The position numbers and the translations under genes are program-made. Below, piece by piece: positions 47,093-47,992 of a DNA stretch of 64,000 bases. Source of the stretch: Curtobacterium sp. S6 (GTDB lineage: Bacteria; Actinomycetota; Actinomycetes; Actinomycetales; Micrococcaceae). The stretch lies in NCBI RefSeq assembly GCF_000710345.2, contig NZ_JHEL01000015.1, positions 248,001-312,000 on the forward strand, given 5' to 3'. How positions within the stretch are numbered: position 1 is the first letter of the stretch; each line of letters starts with the position of its first letter. The notes beneath the pieces were generated by a model. The model was not told the DNA's origin. It ran no database searches and saw only the letters and a program-made list of their open reading frames with translations.

Positions 47093-47409
47093 ATGGCTCT
47101 ACGCCCTCTGACAGATCAGGAACGTGCCGCTGCCCGCGAAAAGGCTAAGCAGTCGCGGCAGATTCGCGCCACTGCGAAACAGGCGCTCAAAAACAGAGAA
47201 ATCACGATCAGTGAATTCTTGCAACGGGCAGACGCGGATGAGGCTTTGCAACGCATCCGTGTCGAGGATATGTTGAAAAATCCCTCCCAAGCATTGGGGA
47301 CGTGCGCGCGGCGGCGATCATGCGAGAACTACGGATCGCGCCGAGCCGCCGTCTTCGTGGCTTGGGGGCACACCAGCGCAAGAATCTCATCGAATACCTC
47401 GAAGGGTAG
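47093..47409 (+). pseudogene. mihF: Integration host factor MihF, frameshifted
   Basis: Starting at ATG 47093 ([20 protein letters not shown]; Shine-Dalgarno GAGAGGAAG), the frame is good MihF until MLKN near 47281, then turns to nonsense. The conserved C-terminal HhH half continues one frame back: [18 protein letters not shown], then [20 protein letters not shown], stopping at TAG 47407. Adding one A to the A5 run at 47276-47280 restores a continuous 105-codon gene ([11 protein letters not shown]), the family length. MihF binds DNA without sequence preference and is essential in mycobacteria. The broken frame reads on without a stop into gmk. Sequencing error, true mutation or slippage cannot be told apart here. 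Confidence 0.85.
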
Positions 47410-47413
47410 TCCA

Positions 47414-47992
47414 GTGACAGAGACCCAGTCCCCGAAATTGACCGTGTTGGCCGGACCGACAGCCGTCGGAAAGGGGACGGTCTCTGCATACATTCGCGAT
47501 CACCACCCCGAGGTATGGTTGTCGATCTCGGCGACCACGCGCGACCCGAGGCGCGGCGAGGAAGACGGCGTCCATTACTACTTCGTCTCGGACGAAGAAT
47601 TCGACTCCATGGTCGATAACCGACAGATGCTCGAGTGGGCTAAAGTCCACAACAATCATCGGTACGGAACCATGAAGCGGATGGTGCTCGAGGCGCTCGA
47701 CGCCGGCCGCCACGTGTTGTTGGAAATCGATATTCAGGGTGCTCGGCAGGTGCGCAACGCCATGCCGGAGGCGAATATGATTTTCCTTGCCCCGCCGAGC
47801 TGGGAAGAGCTGGTCCGTCGCCTGCGCACGCGTGGCACCGAGACCGATACCGAACAGCAGGTGCGGCTGGAGACGGCCAAGGAAGAGCTGGCCTCGGAAC
47901 CCGAATTCGACGTCACGGTGGTCAACGAGACAGTCGAGAAGGCCGCCGCCGAGGTCCTCGAGATCATGGGAATCAGCTCCCCGGCGAAGTAA
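47414..47992 (+). CDS. gmk: Guanylate kinase
   Basis: A 192-residue P-loop kinase (GMP to GDP). Walker [15 protein letters not shown], then [19 protein letters not shown] (GMP site), and [17 protein letters not shown] at 47414 with AAGGG 8 nt upstream is the natural start; the frame stays open upstream only because of the mihF frameshift. It follows mihF closely, as in all actinobacteria. Confidence 0.94.

Follow-up and report, generated by a model that had tools for sequence, protein, structure and literature searches.

A Private Two-Base Length Difference Splits the Only mihF Gene in the Genome Record of Curtobacterium sp. S6

Introduction

What does it mean for a bacterium when mihF, the gene for the actinobacterial integration host factor (IHF), appears in two pieces? 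A study that deleted this gene in Mycobacterium tuberculosis describes it as essential there, and reports that gmk and rpoZ had to be supplied to the deletion strain owing to polar effects (PMC6155035). In the 64,000-nucleotide stretch of DNA analyzed here (the window), which lies on contig C12 of the 12-contig, 2.75 Mb genome of Curtobacterium sp. S6 (G000), the two halves of mihF occupy different reading frames directly upstream of gmk, in the same order as in relatives and as befits a gene for actinobacterial IHF. An earlier note on this DNA proposed that a single A had been lost, and listed an assembly error, a real mutation, and slippage or -1 recoding with two products as possible causes. 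The comparisons below point to a private and very recent length difference of two bases that splits the sole mihF gene without any evolved function. We give this reading, which covers a real mutation and an assembly error jointly, a probability of about 0.92.

Organization of the mihF-gmk Locus

Translation from ATG 47093 yields the N-terminal half of MihF, and the C-terminal half is read in a different frame that ends at TAG 47407-47409 (Table 1), as the earlier note had found. The switch between frames, which it had put near 47276-47290, can be narrowed to the run of five As. The GTG start of gmk lies 4 bases past the mihF TAG. No stop occurs between the shift and the gmk start, and translation confirms a raw open frame of 299 residues.

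Table 1. Features of the mihF-gmk locus in the window, and genomes of the same family in which no mihF match is found.
Feature	Position	Strand	Evidence or remark
mihF N-terminal half, codons 1-62, start frame	47093..47278	+	translation; K. massiliensis MihF match; NF041260 profile 1-62
mihF codons 51-61, nearly invariant DNA	47243..47275	+	lowest 11-codon window in mihF
TTGCAA, candidate -35 of putative internal promoter	47246..47251	+	sequence and conservation
TATGTT, candidate -10	47269..47274	+	17 bases past TTGCAA, one base before the A run; sequence and conservation
A5 run, point of frame change	47276..47280	+	sequence; DNA alignment of 8 sequences
mihF C-terminal half, 42 codons and TAG, other frame	47281..47409	+	ORF P0001; PF22525; NF041260 profile 61-101
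raw open frame: mihF N-half, out-of-frame stretch and Gmk, 299 aa	47093..47992	+	ORF P0003
gmk, guanylate kinase, intact, own GTG start	47414..47992	+	sequence; PF00625 and TIGR03263
mihF-less family genomes G065, G066, G068, G094, G095, G097, G117, G118, G120, G139, G140	loci L208-L218		

Among the named genomes of the collection, those nearest to the window's own are Kocuria massiliensis (G013), Rothia koreensis, and Kocuria sp. 36, as identified by a search that may omit records very near the window's own. The intact K. massiliensis MihF matches the window in two pieces, over residues 1-65 at 86% and residues 62-104 at 95%, in different frames. The family profile NF041260 (actino_IHF) is likewise matched in complementary parts, both encoded at this one locus, and the two results together place the split beyond what chance would produce. 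Each piece alone scores below the NF041260 cut-off of 60 bits (59.2 and 50.7 bits, respectively), so that no single protein of the window's mihF exceeds it, and the K. massiliensis protein reaches 120.1 bits. The H2TH domain, PF22525, is interrupted by the break, and its second half (profile positions 31-69 of 71) is carried by the C-half.

Almost the whole of the intact MihF of K. massiliensis can be aligned with mIHF (PDB 6tob, E 3.5e-23) and with sIHF (SCO1480, PDB 4itq, E 1.6e-18). Unlike in these proteins, the family profile is covered by no single reading frame in the window genome. No second mihF copy was found in this genome, where the K. massiliensis query and the NF041260 profile match the same single locus. 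A search for a start belonging to the C-half found only a 35-residue ORF from GTG 47302, and no Rfam family was found within the window.

These observations suggest what each possible origin would entail. If the break is real, the product of mihF in this strain would be a shortened N-half that continues into gmk as an incidental fusion; working MihF would be missing, and normal Gmk would still be made from gmk's own start. If the break is an assembly error, the strain would have an ordinary mihF.

A Two-Base Difference Confined to One Genome

The comparison with relatives that the earlier note had proposed leaves the window genome isolated. Among the 35 genomes of the genus (Rothia/Kocuria group) that were searched, all 34 others show an uninterrupted mihF match without stops. 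In the family sample, for which the per-genome table of mihF matches is complete, 186 of 197 genomes match mihF, and in the order sample (119 genomes of 95% or higher completeness) 107 match at E up to 1e-7; in both samples a match in two pieces is seen in the window genome only. A literature search for mihF frameshifts, or for mihF in Rothia, returned nothing on topic as judged by titles and the opening of abstracts. One of the 34 congeners (G022) carries two mihF-gmk copies with equal scores, at C1:15787 and C1:2275154, near both ends of a 2.3 Mb contig. This duplicate is probably a terminal overlap left in the assembly.

The size of the difference is not the one originally proposed. In a DNA alignment of eight sequences, the window is 2 bases longer at the A run than all seven aligned relatives, each of which has AAA or AAG at the equivalent site and then a codon for serine. 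Since the window has A5 where these relatives have AAA or AAG, the net change is +2, which replaces the -1 shift with one missing A that the earlier note had claimed. Its reconstruction of a 105-codon original gene does not hold either, as this would be one residue longer than the gene of close relatives. The mihF gene has 104 codons in 27 of the 30 congeners examined, and 115-119 codons, by the script's count, in three more distant ones.

Recoding and the Fused Frame

Could the split serve a purpose? Programmed -1 ribosomal frameshifting or transcript slippage at the A run would yield both MihF and a MihF-Gmk fusion, and several features of the site speak for it. The frame change would be in the required direction, a GAGG precedes the run, and a short CCCAA/TTGGG hairpin stands a few bases downstream. 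In its A run, upstream purine stretch, nearby hairpin, and -1 direction, the site resembles programmed frameshifting of the dnaX type. Unlike at a dnaX-type site, however, the run has no counterpart in the seven aligned relatives, which read mihF as one continuous gene and need no shift, and the downstream fold is no better than chance. The segment 47281-47345 folds with a z of +0.55, and 133 of 200 shuffles are at least as stable, in a test that covers structures other than pseudoknots; no stimulatory structure was thus found in this segment. All seven relatives carry the GAGG as well, and a -1 product would exceed the MihF of close relatives by one residue. Furthermore, five As is short for slippage. 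No conserved slippery site accompanied by a split gene was found among the seven aligned relatives or the 34 unbroken congeners. Lacking a conserved run, a better-than-chance downstream fold, or a conserved split, programmed frameshifting was rejected, and we regard recoding as very improbable. Of the causes first listed for this locus, assembly error and real mutation survive, and slippage or -1 recoding with two products finds no support.

The open path from the break into gmk was considered as a possible object of selection in its own right. In 25 of 29 intact relatives, among them all six closest ones, at least one stop interrupts the stretch that leads from the equivalent site to gmk. In 12 of the 29, the stop of mihF itself lies in the gmk frame. 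In the other 17, gmk is out of frame with mihF, and four of these have no stop in the stretch. Because an open stretch also occurs in these four intact relatives, whose gmk is out of frame with mihF, selection for a fused frame was rejected, and the path into gmk looks incidental and unremarkable.

Age of the Break

If mihF had been lost some time ago in this species, it should now be decaying, and other genera of the family do live without detectable mihF. However, the sequence past the break shows no such decay. Between the C-half of the window and that of K. massiliensis there are 3 nonsynonymous and 18 synonymous changes (pN 0.032, pS 0.55). Pairwise comparisons of seven intact relatives (21 pairs) span a pN of 0 to 0.166 and a pS of 0.22 to 0.74 over the same half, and the pN/pS of the window lies inside the range of these intact pairs; no sign of relaxed selection was found in the C-half by this comparison. 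Nor does the eight-sequence DNA alignment contain a second indel in mihF. An older pseudogene is thus extremely unlikely. As both halves are normally constrained, the break is either very recent or an assembly error.

Real Mutation or Assembly Error

Small non-triplet changes at an A run, seen in one genome with intact flanks, are typical both of strain-private frameshifts and of assembly indel errors. The mihF break differs from this class in that the gene is kept by all 34 sampled congeners and in that the gain is of two bases rather than one. To weigh the two origins, a frameshift survey set 840 kb of the window genome against 800 kb of K. massiliensis. The latter contributed 699 ORFs, of which 498 proved to be conserved; over the 572,775 nt compared in these, 10 ORFs show a change of frame. 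When the candidates other than mihF were aligned and judged by eye, all nine fell in leaders, in intergenic or tRNA sequence, or at overlapping gene ends, leaving mihF as the only intragenic case. Two of the nine have Rfam tRNA matches. Candidate 645 carries, on the other strand, the letters GGTGGTACCGCG, which we take to be T-box-like, and no Rfam match was found there. Candidate 164, a tenth case of the leader type that an initial pass had raised, lies below threshold in the full survey.

A reverse control over 372 conserved ORFs produced 13 candidates, namely mihF itself and 12 others, four of which were aligned. Two of the four appear to be intragenic in K. massiliensis, with gaps of 10 bases and of 1 base, and two are leader-like. 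Intragenic shifts in the K. massiliensis record indicate that such events are not peculiar to the window genome, and a lone event of this kind tells little in either direction. Two ORFs that are open in the window genome, G000:C12:279655-280866 (404 residues) and 319691-320647 (319 residues), have counterparts with frame changes at these two gaps in K. massiliensis G013.

The absence of any further intragenic frameshift among the 498 conserved ORFs leaves the rest of the surveyed sequence looking clean. At the level of sequence comparison, this argues against an indel-ridden assembly, and would still allow for a single isolated error. An error of this sort, whereby mihF is ordinary on the chromosome and the added length is a feature of the record alone, would account for the intact gene in every sampled congener and for the normal constraint on both halves, and the genome is a 12-contig assembly. 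Against it stands the clean survey, as does the type of change, because errors seldom add two bases to a short run. We place the chance of an assembly error somewhat short of even. A real mutation, by which the break exists in the strain, draws on the same survey, in which mihF is the sole intragenic frame change, and on related genera that live without detectable mihF. It must be reconciled with the retention of mihF by all 34 sampled congeners, with the lack of any trace of decay, and with the essentiality of the gene described for M. tuberculosis (PMC6155035). Overall, we consider the odds of a real mutation to be roughly even.

A Conserved Block Next to the Break

Immediately upstream of the A run, mihF contains a block of nearly invariant DNA (Table 1). 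Across the window and six relatives, codons 51-61 average 2.2 differing pairs of 21 per codon, compared to 5.9 in the lowest window of gmk. This low value is reached by only 2 of 20000 column shuffles, and degenerate codons with an invariant amino acid are unchanged in 8 of 10 cases inside the block but in 10 of 63 beyond it (Fisher p 1e-4), values that serve as guides given that the block was chosen after being seen and the species are related. Within the block, TTGCAA-N17-TATGTT fits 8 of the 12 sigma-70 consensus positions; a promoter scan with a threshold of 9 omits this arrangement. The arrangement is present in 6 of the 29 congeners shown, and absent from G008 and 22 others.

From its sequence and conservation, TTGCAA-N17-TATGTT is a candidate internal promoter for gmk-rpoZ. 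If it drives these genes, the A run would sit at its start site. This suggests one way in which a real break might be tolerated: the strain would be a living natural mihF-null, viable because MihF is dispensable in the family, with gmk-rpoZ run by a conserved promoter within mihF that lies before the break. Taken as a whole, this scenario is conceivable but rather unlikely.

Is mihF Dispensable Outside Mycobacteria?

The distribution of mihF bears on how surprising a real break would be. Of the 197 family genomes, 11 gave no mihF match (Table 1), and together they make up the entire sample from three genera. In 10 of them, NF041260 gives weak H2TH matches only, and the three that were opened, one per genus, are presumably ribosomal protein S13. 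All 11 genomes retain gmk and what we take to be rpoZ. Nine of the 11 loci are long enough to include, besides gmk, a gene that we take to be pyrF; it lies directly upstream of gmk, and the 127-255 nt between the two matches leave too little room for mihF. In the order sample, no match at E up to 1e-7 was found in 12 of 119 genomes, namely all nine of one family (f4), two from a second (f3), and one from a third (f17). The sampled relatives of the f3 and f17 genomes mostly keep mihF.

Since mihF goes undetected in three genera of the family and in 12 genomes of the order sample, its essentiality in mycobacteria is not simply transferable. The earlier note had called mihF essential in mycobacteria and a true loss surprising. 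The first part agrees with what the M. tuberculosis study describes (PMC6155035), and the second is weakened by the family genomes without mihF. These absences suggest that the essentiality seen in mycobacteria is not shared by the order as a whole, and because absence is recurrent, a real break in this strain would not be astonishing.

As a lesion, the mihF break is ordinary. The near-frozen block beside it marks a candidate promoter inside mihF, one that would let gmk-rpoZ be expressed independently of that gene. If real, the break would be a natural test of the need for the actinobacterial integration host factor outside mycobacteria.
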